A DNA stretch of 64,000 nt, taken from contig JAKBAM010000002.1 of NCBI GenBank assembly GCA_021809105.1, positions 124,001 to 188,000 on the forward strand, written 5' to 3'. Shown one piece after another: positions 17,183 to 30,321 of the stretch. A model generated the notes under the pieces. It searched no databases. It worked only from the letters and a program-made list of their open reading frames with translations, and was not told where the DNA came from. This DNA is from Actinomycetes bacterium (GTDB lineage: Bacteria > Actinomycetota > Acidimicrobiia > Acidimicrobiales > Palsa-688). The position numbers and the translations under genes were made by a program. The first letter of the stretch is position 1. Every line of letters begins with the position of its first letter.

Positions 17183-17788
17183 ATGACTGCACCTGTCGAC
17201 CGCATCCCCCCGCTCCTGTTCGCCGATTGGGACGAGAGCGCCCGGAGGATCCTTCCTGGTTACCTTCGAAGGCCGGAGCTGTACGAGTCGCACGGGGGAC
17301 CCCGCCCTATGCCGGGTGCCCTCGGCCATTACGCGCATCACGTTCGGTTGGGTGACGCCTGGATGAACTTCAGCGATGTGTTGGCCAAGGATCCGTTGCT
17401 CGACCCGCGCTATCGCGAGATTCTCGTCCTGCGTGTGGCATGGCGGACCCGCTCCGGCTACGAGTGGTATCAGCACGTGCGCATCGCGCAGCAGTGCGGT
17501 CTCACCGTCGAGCACATCGAGGCGGCCATGGAAGGCCCGGATGCGACGCTGTGGACCCCCTTGGAGCGTGGGCTCGTCGCGGCCGTCGACGACATGGTCG
17601 ACCGGTTCGTGGTCTCGGACGCGACATGGAAGCAGCTCAGACCCCATTTCGACGATCCTCAGCTCACCGAGCTGCTGTACGTGGTTGGTTCGTACCTCTG
17701 CCTGGCGTTGGTTTGCAACAGTGTCGGCTTGGCCCCCGATCCTGCGCCGGAGGTCGAGGTGCCGCCGATCCCCCCCCTGGAGGTCTGA
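17183..17788 (+). CDS. carboxymuconolactone decarboxylase/AhpD-like protein
   Basis: The 201-aa protein carries PRYREILVLRVAWRTRSGYEWYQHVRIAQQCGLT, the core helix of the carboxymuconolactone decarboxylase-like family. It has Glu and His in EWYQH instead of the CxxC of peroxidase types. It starts at ATG 17183 after GAAGGAGATCT. It is followed within two bases by a TIM-barrel isomerase gene and then a second one. Such proteins often appear in aromatic and terpenoid catabolism. Its reaction here is unknown. Confidence 0.82.
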   Translation: MTAPVDRIPPLLFADWDESARRILPGYLRRPELYESHGGPRPMPGALGHYAHHVRLGDAWMNFSDVLAKDPLLDPRYREILVLRVAWRTRSGYEWYQHVRIAQQCGLTVEHIEAAMEGPDATLWTPLERGLVAAVDDMVDRFVVSDATWKQLRPHFDDPQLTELLYVVGSYLCLALVCNSVGLAPDPAPEVEVPPIPPLEV

Positions 17789-17789
17789 G

Positions 17790-18437
17790 TTGCGCCGCTA
17801 CGCCCTGGGTGTCGTCGCAGTCACGTTTGCGCCGCTCCCGGCGCTGGGGGCGGCGCTACGAGCTCGGGAGCTCGGCTTCGAGTTCATCGACCCCGCAGTG
17901 GATGTCGATCCGTCGACGCTGACCCTTCCGGTGGGCTGCCCTGCGTCGGACCCGCACCCAGTCGCGGGGTGGGGCTATTGCCCTGCTCCACGGGATGGAC
18001 CGGGCCAGTGGGAGGCCACGGTGGAGCGCTTCAGGGCGGCGCCAGGGTGTTTGATGGAGCCGTGGGCAGGCGCCTGCGTCAATTCGCTCGAGAGTGTCCG
18101 TGCTATGGCTGCGGAGGTGCCCGGGCTGCGGTTCCTCGTGGACACCGGGCATGTGGCTGCGTGGGGCGGGGATCCAGTCGAGCTGTTGGAATATGCCGAC
18201 CACGTGCAGCTTCGTCAAGGTAAGCCGGGTCATGGCCAGCTCCACATCGACGATCCCGGCGGAACGGTCGAATTCGCGGAAGTGATTCGCCGCTTGGACC
18301 AGATCGACTATCCAGGCAAGTTGGCGGTTGAGTATTTCAGCCTCCCTGACCTCGGTTGGCCCCTCGACGATCCTGTGGGTTGGGCGGCCGACCTTGCCGC
18401 TCACGTGCGCCCTCTGCTCGGAGATCACCGGCAGTGA
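17790..18437 (+). CDS. sugar phosphate isomerase/epimerase-like TIM-barrel protein (short)
   Basis: A TTG start at 17790 after CTGGAGG gives 215 aa. The sequence has AP-endonuclease-2-like barrel features: ELGFEFIDPAV, EPWAGACVNSLESVRAMAAEVPGLRFLVDTGHVAAWGGDPVELLEYADHVQLRQGKPGHGQLHIDDPGGTVEF and KLAVEYF. The Glu, Asp-Thr-Gly-His, His and final Glu are the expected metal ligands. It is shorter than the usual 270-300 aa. Its stop overlaps the GTG of the next gene (GTGA), so the two may be subunits of one enzyme. Confidence 0.78.
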   Translation: MRRYALGVVAVTFAPLPALGAALRARELGFEFIDPAVDVDPSTLTLPVGCPASDPHPVAGWGYCPAPRDGPGQWEATVERFRAAPGCLMEPWAGACVNSLESVRAMAAEVPGLRFLVDTGHVAAWGGDPVELLEYADHVQLRQGKPGHGQLHIDDPGGTVEFAEVIRRLDQIDYPGKLAVEYFSLPDLGWPLDDPVGWAADLAAHVRPLLGDHRQ

Positions 18438-19207
18438 CTGCGCACTCTCGCCTGTCTGTCAACAGCATCTGCTCGATCAGGCAGCCGTTTGCGGATGACC
18501 TAGCCCTGTGGGCAGAGCTCGGGATTCGGGATGTCGGCCTCATATCTCCGAAGCTGCAGGCTGCGGGTTGGGAGTCCGGCCGCGACGCGGTTGTCGAGGC
18601 CGGACTTCGGGTGTCGAGCATGTCGGCGTTTCGCGACGAGATCGTCGACGGTTTGCTGCCCTTCCTGGTGGCCGTCGGGTGCGACGTGCTCTACACCGTG
18701 TCGGGCAGTTTCGGCGTGGTCCCCTGGTCAACGTCGGCGGAGATGTTCTGCAAGGCGATGGGTCCGATCATCGCCAGCGCCAAGGATCTCGGGGTGAGGC
18801 TGGCCGTGGAGCCCACTAATCCGCTGAGGAGCGACGTGAGCTTTGTCTTCTCCGTCCGCGACGCGATGGATCTGGCGAGGATGGCTGGCATCGGGGTGGT
18901 GGTCGACTTCTACTCTTCGTGGTACGAGCGCGGGCTGGACGAGTTGGTGCGGGCCAACATCGACCTCGTCACCCTGGTGCAGATCGGCGATTACAAGAAG
19001 GGCACGTTCGACGTACCCAACCGTTGTGCGATCGGCGATGGAGATGTTCCAGTGGAGAGGCTTCTTGGGATGCTGCTCGAGGCCGGGTATGAGGGCCAGT
19101 TCGATCTGGAGATCCTCGGGCCGACGATCGAGGCAGAAGGATACCGGGCGCCGATAGTCCGCAGCGTCGAGCGGGCCAGCCAGATCCTGTCGCGCCTGGG
19201 AGTGTGA
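18434..19207 (+). CDS. sugar phosphate isomerase/epimerase-like TIM-barrel protein
   Basis: GTG 18434 overlaps the stop of the upstream barrel gene and gives 257 aa. Barrel features include ELGIRDVGLISPKLQAAGWE, AKDLGVRLAVEPTNP, GIGVVVDFYSSWYERG, LVTLVQIGDYKKGT and GQFDLEILGP, with Glu, Asp, His-less Gln and Glu at the metal-site positions. The pair may isomerise a sugar freed by the glycosidases or a keto intermediate. I cannot name the reaction. Confidence 0.78.
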   Translation: MTAHSRLSVNSICSIRQPFADDLALWAELGIRDVGLISPKLQAAGWESGRDAVVEAGLRVSSMSAFRDEIVDGLLPFLVAVGCDVLYTVSGSFGVVPWSTSAEMFCKAMGPIIASAKDLGVRLAVEPTNPLRSDVSFVFSVRDAMDLARMAGIGVVVDFYSSWYERGLDELVRANIDLVTLVQIGDYKKGTFDVPNRCAIGDGDVPVERLLGMLLEAGYEGQFDLEILGPTIEAEGYRAPIVRSVERASQILSRLGV

Positions 19208-19231
19208 GATAGCTTGTACCGACCGGTCGCC

Positions 19232-19260
19232 TTGACCACCAGTCGGCTGTGACTTAGGGT
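19232..19260 (+). promoter_or_regulatory. candidate sigma-70-type promoter
   Basis: TTGACC at 19232-19237 and TAGGGT at 19255-19260 are spaced by 17 bases. They lie 38 bases before the start of the Rieske-like gene at 19298. A GGGGAGG ribosome site follows. Confidence 0.45.
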
Positions 19261-19297
19261 CCTGGAAGTTCGCTCGCGGACCAGGGGAGGTGGTTCG

Positions 19298-20428
19298 ATG
19301 ATCACCCAGACCGAAAACGAGCTGATGACCCGAGTCGAGGGCGACGCGCCCATGGGCCAGCTCATGCAGAACCACTACTGGATCCCCTTCGCGCTGTCGT
19401 CTCATTTGCTGAACGAGCGGGCTCCGATGCCGGTCCGACTGTTCGGCGGCGACTTCGTTGCCCTCCGGGGCGAGGACGGCCGGGTGAGATTCCTCGACGA
19501 GACTTGCCGTCATCGAGGCGGAGCGGTCGCCCACTTCCCCGTACACGAGGCGGGTGGCCTGTCATGGGTGTGGCAAGGCGGCGGTGAGGCCCCCCCGTTC
19601 CCGGACCTGCCTTTCGATGGTACGGACCTGTACCAATTCTGGTGTGTGTGCCAGGTGCCCTGCAACTGGCTGCAAGGGGTCGAGGGCACGATCGACTCTG
19701 CCCATGTCGGCGTGCTGCACCAGACGTGGATTGCTGAGGCGGCCAAGATGGCGGAGCACTCAAACCTCGGGCTCGCTCTGGTGCAGCCACCCACCTACGA
19801 GACCGAAGCCACCTCGTATGGCATGCGCGCCGCTGCGCTTCGCAAGACAGCGGATGGAGGCGCGTACGTGCGGATCACCGAGCATTTGATGCCTTTGGTG
19901 ACGGTGGTGCCGATCGGGCGCGCCATGCCTAGATCGGGTTCGGTGTTTGCCATATCACCGACGGATGACACCCACCACCACCTCTTCTTCGGGACCTTCG
20001 GGGACACGCCCCACAGTGCCGAGCCGCCGGAGCGGACTGCGATGCAAGATCCGCGATACGTCCCAGAGGACCTGGACTACACGGGACTGCGGGGAGATCG
20101 GTCCAACGCCTGGGGCCAGGACCGGGGTCGCATGGGCCGCGGTCATTTCTCGGGCTTTTGGCGGAGCCTGCTGGAGGAAGACGCCGTAGTCCAAACGAGC
20201 ATGGGTCCGATCGTCGATCGGACCAGGGAGAACCTCTCCTCTGGAGATGTAGCAGTGGTCCAGGCTCGACGCCTCTTGCTCGAAGCCCTGGACGCCGCAG
20301 GGTCCGGGCGCCTGCCGCCCGGGAGCGCGCTGTCTCACGATGACGTCAAGCTCCCCAATGCGTCCGAGGTCTTCATTGGAGACGGGGAGCGTTGGGAGGA
20401 CGCAGCGATCAATCCACTGGCAAGCTGA
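19298..20428 (+). CDS. phthalate/vanillate-type Rieske oxygenase with half of the Rieske motif missing
   Basis: The 376-aa protein aligns with oxygenase subunits of the phthalate 4,5-dioxygenase/VanA type: MGQLMQNHYWIPFALSS at the N-terminus, then VRLFGGDFVALRGEDGRVRFLDETCRHRGG. The mononuclear-iron motif NWLQGVEGTIDSAHVGVLH gives Asp 133, His 136 and His 141. After Cys 70 and His 72 the text jumps to FPVHEAGGLSWVWQGGGEAPPFPDLPF. The stretch with the second Cys-x-x-His pair is absent. It is an in-frame loss of about 40-45 residues, so a normal [2Fe-2S] Rieske centre cannot form. The gene is otherwise full and open. Confidence 0.8.
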   Translation: MITQTENELMTRVEGDAPMGQLMQNHYWIPFALSSHLLNERAPMPVRLFGGDFVALRGEDGRVRFLDETCRHRGGAVAHFPVHEAGGLSWVWQGGGEAPPFPDLPFDGTDLYQFWCVCQVPCNWLQGVEGTIDSAHVGVLHQTWIAEAAKMAEHSNLGLALVQPPTYETEATSYGMRAAALRKTADGGAYVRITEHLMPLVTVVPIGRAMPRSGSVFAISPTDDTHHHLFFGTFGDTPHSAEPPERTAMQDPRYVPEDLDYTGLRGDRSNAWGQDRGRMGRGHFSGFWRSLLEEDAVVQTSMGPIVDRTRENLSSGDVAVVQARRLLLEALDAAGSGRLPPGSALSHDDVKLPNASEVFIGDGERWEDAAINPLAS

Positions 20429-26214: not shown

Positions 26215-27498
26215 ATGGCCCGATATCCCAAGCCAGCCGAAGGCAGCTGGACCGAGCACTATCCCGAGCTCGGTACCGGTCCCCTCTCCAGCGAGGACTC
26301 GATCTCGCCGGAGTTCTACGAACTCGAGCGCGAGGCGATCTTCAAGAGGGCCTGGCTGAATGTGGGGCGGGTCGAAGAGCTACCCCGCAAAGGCAGCTTC
26401 TTCACCAAGGAGCTGGTGGCTGCCGGGACCTCCGTCATAATCGTGCGTGACATGAAGGGCGAGATCCGCGCGTTCCACAACATATGCCGCCATCGTGGCA
26501 ACAAGCTGGTTTGGAAAGACTTCCCGGGAGAAGAGACACGAGGAAGCTGCCGTCAGTTCGTCTGCAAGTACCACATGTGGAGCTACGACCTCGACGGCGC
26601 GCTCAACACCGTGCCGCAGGAAGAAGAGTTCTTCGATCTCGATAAGGCGATTATGGGCCTCCTCCCGGTGCACTGCGACGTCTGGGCCGGTTTCATCTTC
26701 GTCAACGTAGCGACCGAGCCGAGTCAGACGCTGACGGAGTACCTAGGACCGATGGTGCTCGCCCTGAGCGACTACCCCTTCCACGAGCAAAGTGATCGCT
26801 ACGCCTTCAGGGCGACTGTCGGGTCGAACTGGAAGCTGTTCATGGACGCCTTTCAAGAGTTCTATCACGCACCTTATCTGCATGGTGGACAGACTCCGAC
26901 CAAGTTCACGAATATGATCCGACAGTTTGGCTTCGAGGCCCCTTTCTACAAACTAGAAGGGCCGCATAGGGTCGTGTCGACCGGGGGTGTCCGCGGCGAG
27001 GATCAGCCCGAAGACATGATCAAGCCGATCGAACGGAAGCTCCGCAGCGGACTGTTCGGTCCATGGGATCATGCCGACCTCAGTATCGAAAACGAGCAGG
27101 ATATCGCGGGTGTCAACCCGAGCGGCGCAAATCCCTGGGGTCTTGACTCCTACCAGGTATGGCCGAACTTCGTCATCTTGATCTGGGCCGGAGGGTGGTA
27201 CCTCACCTACCACTACTGGCCTACCTCTGCGAACAGTCACGTGTTCGAGTCGAGCCTGTACTTCGTGCCGCCGAAGAACGCCTCGGAGAGACTGGCTCAA
27301 GAGCTTGCCCTGGTCAGCTTCAAGGAGTACGGCCTGCAAGATGCCAACACCCTCGAGGCCACGCAAAAGATGCTCGAGACGCGAGTGATGAGTGAGTACG
27401 TCCTCAATGACCAGGAAGTCCTCTGTCGCCATCTCCACAAGGAAGTGGCCAACGCCGTAGAGGAATACAAGAAGGAAACGCAAGGAGCGATCGTCTGA
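26215..27498 (+). CDS. aromatic ring-hydroxylating (Rieske) oxygenase alpha subunit
   Basis: This is an intact 427-aa Rieske oxygenase. The cluster ligands are Cys 91 and His 93 in CRHRGNK and Cys 117 and His 120 in CKYHMW. The spacing between the pairs is longer than usual because of an insert (DFPGEETRGSCRQF). The iron site is NWKLFMDAFQEFYHAPYLH with His 218 and His 223. It should hydroxylate or demethylate an organic substrate, fed by a ferredoxin and reductase encoded elsewhere. The next gene starts on its stop codon. Confidence 0.9.
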   Translation: MARYPKPAEGSWTEHYPELGTGPLSSEDSISPEFYELEREAIFKRAWLNVGRVEELPRKGSFFTKELVAAGTSVIIVRDMKGEIRAFHNICRHRGNKLVWKDFPGEETRGSCRQFVCKYHMWSYDLDGALNTVPQEEEFFDLDKAIMGLLPVHCDVWAGFIFVNVATEPSQTLTEYLGPMVLALSDYPFHEQSDRYAFRATVGSNWKLFMDAFQEFYHAPYLHGGQTPTKFTNMIRQFGFEAPFYKLEGPHRVVSTGGVRGEDQPEDMIKPIERKLRSGLFGPWDHADLSIENEQDIAGVNPSGANPWGLDSYQVWPNFVILIWAGGWYLTYHYWPTSANSHVFESSLYFVPPKNASERLAQELALVSFKEYGLQDANTLEATQKMLETRVMSEYVLNDQEVLCRHLHKEVANAVEEYKKETQGAIV

Positions 27499-27839
27499 TG
27501 GGCACCGACAGCGCGCTTCTGCCTAGCGCATTCTCCGATCTCGAACCCTACGCTCAGGCCTGGTGCCTGCCGACTGAGAACCAGCGCTTCGCGAAGCGTA
27601 TGTCCAGCTCGATGGACGAGATGGAGTCGTTCTACAACGCCGCCTTCCCCCGCCTCGAGGAGGCCAAGGCATACCTGGACGAGCTAGACGTCCACGACCT
27701 CCCCGGGGATGCCGAGAACCTCATGCACATGATGTTTTCTCTGATCATCGTGTCATTCCCGATCGAGCTCTGGCGGCAGCCCGCCGTCCCGGACGCAGGG
27801 GCGGCGGAGATCGTCTGCTGGCTGGAAGCGCCGTTGTAG
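27498..27839 (+). CDS. small Rieske-partner protein, 113 aa
   Basis: ATG 27498 shares its first base with the stop of the Rieske gene, so the two are coupled. The protein is acidic and helical (FSDLEPYAQAWCLPTENQRFAKRMSSSMDEMESFYNAAFPRLEEAKAYLDELDVHDLPGDAENL) and ends WRQPAVPDAGAAEIVCWLEAP. I recall similar small proteins next to Rieske oxygenases in other actinobacteria, but I cannot give them a function. No metal or nucleotide motif is visible. A role in oxygenase assembly or stability is an inference from position. Confidence 0.7.
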   Translation: MGTDSALLPSAFSDLEPYAQAWCLPTENQRFAKRMSSSMDEMESFYNAAFPRLEEAKAYLDELDVHDLPGDAENLMHMMFSLIIVSFPIELWRQPAVPDAGAAEIVCWLEAPL

Positions 27840-27870
27840 TCCCCTCAGGGGCGAGCTCGGCCAGGCGGCG

Positions 27871-28782
27871 GTGATGTACCGTTCGGCGATGCCGGTCAAT
27901 GCGCGGGCCGCTGGCTCCTTCGTCGGAGCGGCGACGGCGATGCAAGATCCCGGGACTACCCCGGTGAGAGCCGGTACGTTCTCGGCTGAAGTGGGGGAGG
28001 CGGTGGTCACCGGCTGGCACTCGCACGACCGCCACCAACTTGAGTATGCGTTCGAAGGTGTGGCCGAAGTCGAGACGGAGACCGCTCGCTACCTCCTGCC
28101 CCCGCAACAGGCGGTGTGGATACCGGCCGGCGTTCACCACTCGAGCACGCTCACCCATGTGAAGGCGGTCTCGGTCTTCTTCGATCCGGCGATGGGGTTC
28201 GCGGCCGGTGATCGGGTCCGGATACTGGCCGCCGCGCCGGTGATCCGGGAGATGATCCTCTACGCTCGCAGGTGGCCGGTCAGTCGCAGCAGTTCGGACC
28301 GACCAGCCGATACCTTCTTCGAGGTCCTGGCGAACCTGGTGGTTGACTGGCTCGATCACGAAACCCCGCTCTGCCTTCCCACGACTCGCGATCCGCTCAT
28401 TGGAGCCGCGATGGCCTTTACGGCTGAGCACCTGGCACGGGTGACCCTCGGCGATGTCTGCTCCGCGGTAGGAGCGTCGGAGCGCACGCTGCGCCGGACC
28501 TTCCTCACCGTAGCCGGCATGTCGTGGCGCAAGTATCTACAGGAGAGCCGCCTCCTGAAGGCCATGGCGCTCCTGGCAAATGACGATGGCAACTTGCTGA
28601 CGATCGCCCAGACGGTCGGATTCGAAAGCGCCAGTGCGTTCACTCGCGCCTTCGGGCGCTACGCCGGCGAGTCGCCTCACGCCTACCGCCAACGCATCGG
28701 CGCCACGCCCTCGGCCCCCCCCAACGCCGGCGAGGCGCCGAGCAGGGAGGCCGACGCGGTCCGTGCGTGGTCTCATTTCTAG
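27871..28782 (+). CDS. AraC-family transcriptional regulator
   Basis: An N-terminal cupin-like sensor (WHSHDRHQLEYAFEGVAEVETETARYLLPPQQAVWIPAGVHHSSTL) is followed by two HTH motifs at the C-terminus: VTLGDVCSAVGASERTLRRTFLTVAGMSWRKYLQESRLLKAMALL and TIAQTVGFESASAFTRAFGRYAGESPHAYRQR. This matches AraC regulators with a cupin-like sensor. Starts GTG 27871, ATG 27874 and ATG 27889 are all possible. It lies between two Rieske genes and probably activates one or both. Confidence 0.88.
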   Translation: MMYRSAMPVNARAAGSFVGAATAMQDPGTTPVRAGTFSAEVGEAVVTGWHSHDRHQLEYAFEGVAEVETETARYLLPPQQAVWIPAGVHHSSTLTHVKAVSVFFDPAMGFAAGDRVRILAAAPVIREMILYARRWPVSRSSSDRPADTFFEVLANLVVDWLDHETPLCLPTTRDPLIGAAMAFTAEHLARVTLGDVCSAVGASERTLRRTFLTVAGMSWRKYLQESRLLKAMALLANDDGNLLTIAQTVGFESASAFTRAFGRYAGESPHAYRQRIGATPSAPPNAGEAPSREADAVRAWSHF

Positions 28783-28980
28783 CTAGTCGTTCGGTCATCC
28801 ACGGGTGGGCTGCCGGTCAGGCCGCGAGGTTGGCCGATAGGGTCAATGACTTGGCCGGGTGCGCATTGACCATCCCGGCTCCCGGGTGCATGCTGGCAAG
28901 CTGAGAGCTGTTGTGGTGTCTCGGTCGGGCGTCTGGCTGCAGGCTGTCGGCCTATCACTGCCGTAGACCAGGGAGGGCTG

Positions 28981-30321
28981 ATGACGGTGACCGAGGAGCG
29001 TCCGAGCGGGACGGCGCACGTGCCTTTCGCCATGCGGGATCCGTTGCGGGTGCCGCGTGAGCGCTACTTCGATCGCGGGTTCTTCGAGCTAGAGAAGCAG
29101 CGCCTTTGGCCAAGGGTCTGGCAGATGGCCTGCCGGCTCGAGGAGATCCCGAGCCCCGGTGACTTCGTCGAATACGAGATCTGCGATCAGTCCATCATCA
29201 TGGTGCGCCAGGCAGATAGGTCGGTCAAGGCGTTCTACAACGCTTGCCGACATCGGGCCACCGAGCTGTGCAAGGGATCGGGTCGCCTTCCCGGAGGGCA
29301 GATCAGGTGCCCCTTCCACGGCTGGCGCTGGAACCTCGACGGCTCGACCTCGTTCCTCTATGGCGCCGACGGCTTCGATCCGGAGAGCCTGCAGCCCCAG
29401 GATGTCCGTTTGAGGGAGTGCAAGGTAGACATCTGGGGAGCGTGCGCCTGGATCAACATGGACCCCGATGCGCGTCCCCTCCGTGAGGCACTCTCACCGG
29501 CCGCTGAGATCATGGAGTCTTTCGGAGTCGACGATCTGCGCGTGTACTGGTGGAAGGAGGCCATCATCCCGGCGAACTGGAAGCTGGCGCAAGAGGCATT
29601 CCACGAAGGTTGGCACGTGATGGCGACACATCCGCAGCTCACATTGGGTGCGGGGGAGGACTACCCCCCGGGCGCGGCGGAGCACGCAACGTTCGAGAAC
29701 GGCCACGCCCGTTTCCAGGGTCGTCACGACCCGTCTTCCATGGTTGTGTCGAAGAGCCGGGGAGCCCAGGGCTTCCTCGACTCCATGCGTTTGCTGTGGG
29801 AGGGGCAGGACGCCATGGTTCTCGAGCGCGACGTGCGCGTCTTCGAGGGCGTCCGCAACCTCGTGGGGCCCGGAGAGGACTACCCCACGGCGGCGGTCAA
29901 GGCGCTCGTAGAGTATGCGGCCGGTGCCGGGGTGCCACTTCGCGCTACGCCCGAGAGCATGCGGCTGTGGGGCGGTGAGGTCTTCCTCTTTCCCAACTTC
30001 TTCTTCCTGCCGATGTACAGCAATGCACTGTCATACCGAGTGCGGCCCTACAACGACGATCCTGAGATGTGTCGCTTCGAGGTGTGGTCGCTCACCATGC
30101 CGGCTGAGGGTGCGGAGCCGCAGCGGGCCCGCCTGAAGGGGCGCTTCGCCACCGACGACGCTGACAACTGGGGGCGGATACCGCGACAGGACTTCAGCAA
30201 CCTTCAGCGGCAGCAGCGGGGTCTTCACTCCCACAGCTTCGATTCGCACCGCCTGTCGAGGGAGTGGGAGCGTGCGATAAGCAACATGCACGAGGAACTT
30301 GATAGGCGACTCGCCACATGA
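28981..30321 (+). CDS. aromatic ring-hydroxylating (Rieske) oxygenase alpha subunit
   Basis: This is a full 446-aa Rieske oxygenase with ligands Cys 89/His 91 (CRHRATELC) and Cys 110/His 113 (CPFHGWRWNLDG). The iron site is NWKLAQEAFHEGWHVMATH with two His. The C-terminal half has the long WSLTMPAEG sheet of the family. It belongs to a different branch from the 26215 protein. It follows the AraC gene with a 198-base gap in which I see only the AGGGAGG ribosome site. Substrate unknown. Confidence 0.9.
   Translation: MTVTEERPSGTAHVPFAMRDPLRVPRERYFDRGFFELEKQRLWPRVWQMACRLEEIPSPGDFVEYEICDQSIIMVRQADRSVKAFYNACRHRATELCKGSGRLPGGQIRCPFHGWRWNLDGSTSFLYGADGFDPESLQPQDVRLRECKVDIWGACAWINMDPDARPLREALSPAAEIMESFGVDDLRVYWWKEAIIPANWKLAQEAFHEGWHVMATHPQLTLGAGEDYPPGAAEHATFENGHARFQGRHDPSSMVVSKSRGAQGFLDSMRLLWEGQDAMVLERDVRVFEGVRNLVGPGEDYPTAAVKALVEYAAGAGVPLRATPESMRLWGGEVFLFPNFFFLPMYSNALSYRVRPYNDDPEMCRFEVWSLTMPAEGAEPQRARLKGRFATDDADNWGRIPRQDFSNLQRQQRGLHSHSFDSHRLSREWERAISNMHEELDRRLAT

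Follow-up and report, generated by a model that had tools for sequence, protein, structure and literature searches.

A Rieske oxygenase gene with an in-frame deletion of the second cluster-ligand pair, possibly retained as a catalytic subunit in a soil actinobacterium

RO-B is a gene in a 64,000-nucleotide stretch of DNA (the window) from contig JAKBAM010000002.1 of a soil actinobacterium (assembly GCA_021809105.1). It encodes a Rieske oxygenase from which a 132-nucleotide in-frame deletion appears to have taken the loop segment with the second Cys-x2-His pair, so leaving a chain that would lack a Rieske cluster but keeps the base of that domain and the entire mononuclear-iron domain. The absence of this segment is confirmed here, and our interpretation leans modestly to a retained Rieske-less subunit over fresh damage to the gene.

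The RO-B reading frame consists of 376 open codons with zero internal stops and encodes 376 amino acids (Table 1). Direct reading of the translation finds Cys70-x-His72 and no C-x2-H motif anywhere in the protein; of the two ligand pairs of a functional Rieske oxygenase alpha subunit (C-x-H and C-x2-H), the first is there and the second is gone. The closest intact relatives are the RO-B genes of L010 and L011, two Acidimicrobiaceae metagenome-assembled genomes from palsa, which encode 420 amino acids each; identity to RO-B over aligned positions is 69% for L010, 68% for L011 and 65% for a paralogue on contig C52 of the host genome. Alignment with L010 and L011 leaves a single gap of 44 codons, in frame, between residues 76 and 77. 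Its exact breakpoint could lie anywhere within about 14 nucleotides, and the nearest intact relatives are too diverged to reveal microhomology there. In relatives the lost segment reads SLLLARTEGNGLRCIYHGWK...FAASVP and holds Cys89 and His92 (L010 numbering); it is present in all 15 other family members aligned, and the peptide spanning the junction in RO-B is DETCRHRGGAVAHFPVHEAGG. Across the 16 aligned proteins there is no variation at the bridging Asp133 or at the iron ligands His136, His141 and Asp295. By motif and spacing they correspond to D174, H177, H182 and D337 of isophthalate dioxygenase, the first of which is bridging and the other three iron ligands (PMC12445078). A sequence-only reading of the gene had claimed that Cys70, His72 and the mononuclear-iron motif were kept, that the second Cys-x-x-His pair had gone with about 40–45 residues and no frame break, and that a Rieske cluster could not form in the usual way, and each of these claims held. 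The last is supported because two of the four ligands and the loop that carries them are deleted; in addition, residues 71–75 at the junction are predicted by AlphaFold to be disordered, with a predicted local distance difference test (pLDDT) score below 50.

On its sequence, RO-B is assigned to the LigXa/phthalate dioxygenase family and not to VanA. LigXa_C is matched at 1.8e-29 (103.3 bits against a curated Pfam cut-off of 27), and the 2-His-1-carboxylate iron site and the bridging Asp of this family are both in place; the Pfam Rieske model is covered partially, over positions 2–51 of 88 (19.5 bits against a cut-off of 20.3). A VanA-type O-demethylase identity was rejected (VanA_C 17.2 bits against a cut-off of 23.5). 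The solved structures nearest to RO-B are those of phthalate dioxygenase and isophthalate dioxygenase. The AlphaFold model of RO-B has a mean pLDDT of 82, with confident prediction of the strands at the base of the Rieske domain and of the greater part of the catalytic domain. An intact relative modelled in the same way reached 85.6, the stretch absent from RO-B forming four short strands and a helix.

We propose, tentatively and at a little under an even chance, that RO-B is a Rieske-less catalytic subunit that still folds, is used and is fed by the Rieske cluster of another protein. In this class of enzyme the iron receives its electron from the cluster of an adjacent subunit, over 12.5 Å across the interface against 45 Å within the chain (PMC12445078), so a partner chain with a cluster could in principle supply the cluster-less RO-B. 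The likeliest partner would be one of the intact LigXa-type paralogues that the genome encodes, such as the C52 product, joined with RO-B in a mixed trimer; since electrons usually pass between subunits, this is the simplest working model. A free Rieske ferredoxin would be the second choice. The narrower proposal, that RO-B has lost the cluster-binding segment only and serves in a mixed trimer on the Rieske cluster of a paralogous neighbour, we regard as rather unlikely. Expression of RO-B, its partner, its electron path and its substrate are matters that we infer.

Candidate donors in trans are encoded in the host genome (3.65 megabases in 118 contigs, 92% complete). Its 15 Rieske matches comprise intact oxygenases, three free ferredoxin-like proteins (C101, C16:50007 and C23), a QcrA-like protein (C112) and the RO-B remnant; a reductase with a C-terminal Fer2 domain is encoded on C39, and there are several other ferredoxins. 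Four further relatives of RO-B, on contigs C52, C66, C54 and C19, each have a full Rieske domain. Another possibility, which we consider improbable, is that RO-B is no longer an NADH-driven oxygenase but a companion chain of an intact paralogue, with a structural or substrate-binding role, or an enzyme that uses peroxide at its remaining iron site. Retention of the catalytic pocket and iron ligands with loss of the electron input would fit this, as would the failure to find a dedicated donor. To our knowledge, no physiological peroxide route has been established in this oxygenase family, which counts against such a role. The bridging Asp, described as linking both metal centres (PMC12445078), is also kept, and this argues in the same direction.

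The catalytic domain of RO-B has evolved at a normal rate and under purifying selection: its branch length is 0.217, against 0.210 for L010, and the ratio of non-synonymous to synonymous substitution rates between the two is about 0.13, with synonymous divergence near saturation. In the Rieske remnant the RO-B branch, and this branch only, is about 3.6 times longer than the catalytic domain predicts (twice the log-likelihood difference, 2ΔlnL, 19.0), or 2.8 times longer when residues 70–76 are removed (2ΔlnL 10.6). Calibration with 73-column segments of the catalytic domain on all seven branches gave 63 acceleration tests; none came up to 18.9, and the two that exceeded 10.5 both concerned the L005 branch. 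The data are suggestive of change in the remnant about three to four times faster than expected on the RO-B branch. These rates bear on the main rival explanation, that RO-B is a recently damaged redundant copy with an inactive protein product, an old second operon having lost RO-A (a second oxygenase gene) and a small gene and then part of RO-B. We think this quite possible, if improbable on balance. The frame would then still be open because the damage is recent and because one deletion in three keeps the frame by chance. Such damage is at odds with the lack of any stop or frameshift, with the normal constraint on the catalytic domain and with the intact state of the adjacent TIM (triosephosphate isomerase)-barrel genes. 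If loss of the cluster had killed the gene and the remnant had drifted as a result, drift would be expected in the catalytic domain as well, but that domain shows none; nor is fast change mostly within the remnant expected if the loss came too late to leave a trace in the catalytic domain. Gene-wide loss of constraint, as in a pseudogene, is not seen, although a very recent loss would leave no such mark, and a recent loss is possible if the excess in the remnant arose by chance or predates the deletion.

The sequences ahead of RO-B have also been kept. In L010, L011 and C52 the gene order is TIM-barrel gene, palindrome and promoter hexamers, RO-A, a gene of about 109 codons, and a RO-B with a full-length Rieske domain. 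The window has the same TIM-barrel gene, palindrome and promoter but, unlike these loci, neither RO-A nor the small gene; the start codon (ATG) of the shortened RO-B comes 68 nucleotides after the palindrome. The palindrome is also found upstream of RO-A in L010 (4299–4312, where it reads ACCGACCGGTCGGT), in L011 and in C52 (L053 3742–3753). Followed by TTGAC it occurs exactly twice in the host genome, in the window and in C52, and a reversed control gave zero. The 17-nucleotide hexamer spacing recurs in C52 (TTGACT, TAGTGT) and L010 (TTGACC, TAATTT); a generic consensus promoter scan missed the hexamers of the window, which are a weak match. From this arrangement, the palindrome beside the hexamers is probably a repressor operator of the oxygenase operon. 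The C52 contig, which carries the intact four-gene operon (L053), is very short (4198 bases), and its assignment to the host is less certain than for longer contigs.

The sequence-only reading had proposed a search for the same deletion in related genomes, and it was found nowhere else among 32 genomes of the family, two public genomes, and samples drawn from the order (397 genomes), the class (395) and the phylum (397), which overlap in part. With metagenomes outside the scope, this is a weak test of rarity. Close relatives that turned up in the genome scans are intact. In each of the 15 plasmid relatives listed, the matching region is at least 30 residues longer than the part of the query that it covers, so they retain the segment. 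A genome from the same genus gave no match to the RO-B protein. A further explanation is that the gap comes from faulty assembly or from a variant of a minority strain, and that the real genome has the 132-nucleotide segment. A draft in 118 contigs with several similar paralogues lends this some credence, but the junction is in frame, a chimaera of paralogues only 49–66% identical would appear as a jump in similarity, and the faster change in residues 1–69 would be left unexplained; we give it little weight. A side observation from the same searches is that the relative G011 (same family; 3.3 megabases, 72% complete) has 44 stretches matching the oxygenase family, two or more per gene, which far exceeds the count in every other relative searched.

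Several points weigh against a Rieske-less subunit in use. The deletion is known from one genome, RO-A and the small gene have also gone from the locus, as expected under decay, and no dedicated donor is encoded near RO-B; these also favour a damaged copy, as do the four intact paralogues. Moreover, the rate signal is weaker without residues 70–76, where two of the 63 calibration tests exceed it, and in a head-to-tail trimer a cluster-less chain leaves the neighbouring iron without a donor. In support of the Rieske-less subunit are the kept frame, palindrome, promoter spacing and ribosome site ahead of the shortened gene, the invariant iron ligands and bridging Asp, the constraint on the catalytic domain, a structural model that is confident outside residues 71–75, and the intact paralogues and free Rieske proteins in the genome. 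Between the alternatives raised by the sequence-only reading, a damaged gene or a protein using another electron source, we therefore lean modestly to the second, mainly on the contrast between catalytic constraint and change in the remnant and on the retained frame, promoter and ribosome site, with decay still a rival.

Table 1. Features of the RO-B locus and related genes in the window.
Feature	Position	Strand	Basis
TIM-barrel gene (AP_endonuc_2, hydroxypyruvate-isomerase-like), directly upstream of RO-B	18434..19207	+	Pfam
Palindromic operator-like element TTGTACCGACCGGTCG	19214..19229	.	exact sequence match
Promoter-like hexamers TTGACC-17-TAGGGT	19232..19260	+	reading of sequences
Ribosome-binding-like GGGGAGG ahead of RO-B ATG	19284..19290	+	sequence
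RO-B, LigXa/phthalate-dioxygenase-type Rieske oxygenase without 44 codons	19298..20428	+	translation, Pfam, alignment
Rieske remnant, residues 1–76 including C70-x-H72	19298..19525	+	alignment, branch-rate tests
Deletion junction, 132 nucleotides gone, exact position ambiguous	19515..19529	+	alignment
Catalytic domain, residues 80–376	19535..20425	+	alignment
Kept catalytic residues D133, H136, H141, D295	19694–19696, 19703–19705, 19718–19720, 20180–20182	+	alignment
RO-A-type oxygenase, intact Rieske domain	26215..27498	+	Pfam, comparison
Small gene, about 109 amino acids, of the kind found after RO-A in L010, L011 and C52	27510..27839	+	tblastn 47% identity, translation

The TIM-barrel gene directly upstream of RO-B is 84% identical to the C52 copy, for which 142 residues are available, and, to that of L010, 65.6% identical in one comparison and 73% in another. 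It is thus closer to C52, whereas RO-B is slightly closer to L010 (69% against 65%), and the RO-B tree gives weak support (49) to the split in question; this discordance suggests exchange or differing histories of the neighbouring genes. Erosion of neighbouring genes was considered and rejected, as a further TIM-barrel gene at about 17772–18434 aligns with homologues over 8–218 of 221 positions and is untruncated. The RO-A-type gene downstream in the window is an old paralogue (58–61% identical) of the RO-A that the RO-B locus lacks. Proteins of about 109 amino acids without a Pfam match are encoded behind RO-A genes in the window, in L010 (5649–5975) and in L053 (2075–2401), and may serve the RO-A oxygenase as an accessory subunit. 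Another oxygenase lies at 28981–30321; the presence of two intact-Rieske oxygenases within 26215–30321, near RO-B, places the window in a catabolic region.

Rieske oxygenases hold both metal centres in each chain even though the electron passes between chains. A natural chain lacking one centre, in a domain that is normal in other respects, would be a test of whether a mixed trimer can work with more irons than clusters, and RO-B might reveal how split systems of the NdmC/NdmD kind originate. For annotation, it would caution that a partial Rieske match need not equal a dead gene; if RO-B is merely decaying, it has little importance. Phrase searches of the literature on Rieske-less oxygenases returned respiratory-chain and unrelated papers only. 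The phthalate and isophthalate dioxygenases of Comamonas testosteroni KF1 (PDB 7FJL/7V28 and 9INA) share the fold, family, catalytic ligands and bridging Asp of RO-B but their Rieske domain, unlike that of RO-B, is complete, with the full set of four cluster ligands. In Micromonas pusilla the functional unit of another Rieske oxygenase, chlorophyllide a oxygenase, is spread over two chains (PMC9615114); these are a dedicated pair, whereas RO-B has no partner with a complementary loss among the oxygenases read. The nearest parallel is NdmC of the caffeine N-demethylase NdmCDE of Pseudomonas putida CBB5, a non-heme iron oxygenase chain, kin to full oxygenases, that lacks a Rieske cluster and uses the one on NdmD (PMC4408171). 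To judge from its own sequence, RO-B resembles the described NdmC in having no cluster and a kept catalytic iron site, although most of the Rieske-domain base remains in RO-B. The NdmC/NdmD arrangement as such appears not to be reproduced in the host genome: none of its 15 Rieske matches is an NdmD-like reductase with an extra Rieske domain, and a glutathione S-transferase-like NdmE partner was absent from the neighbouring genes searched with Pfam, the rest of the genome not having been searched. By analogy, the NdmC precedent makes a Rieske-less RO-B plausible and reduces its novelty; a mixed-trimer RO-B, if true, would be a route to separating the metal centres other than that taken by NdmC/NdmD.
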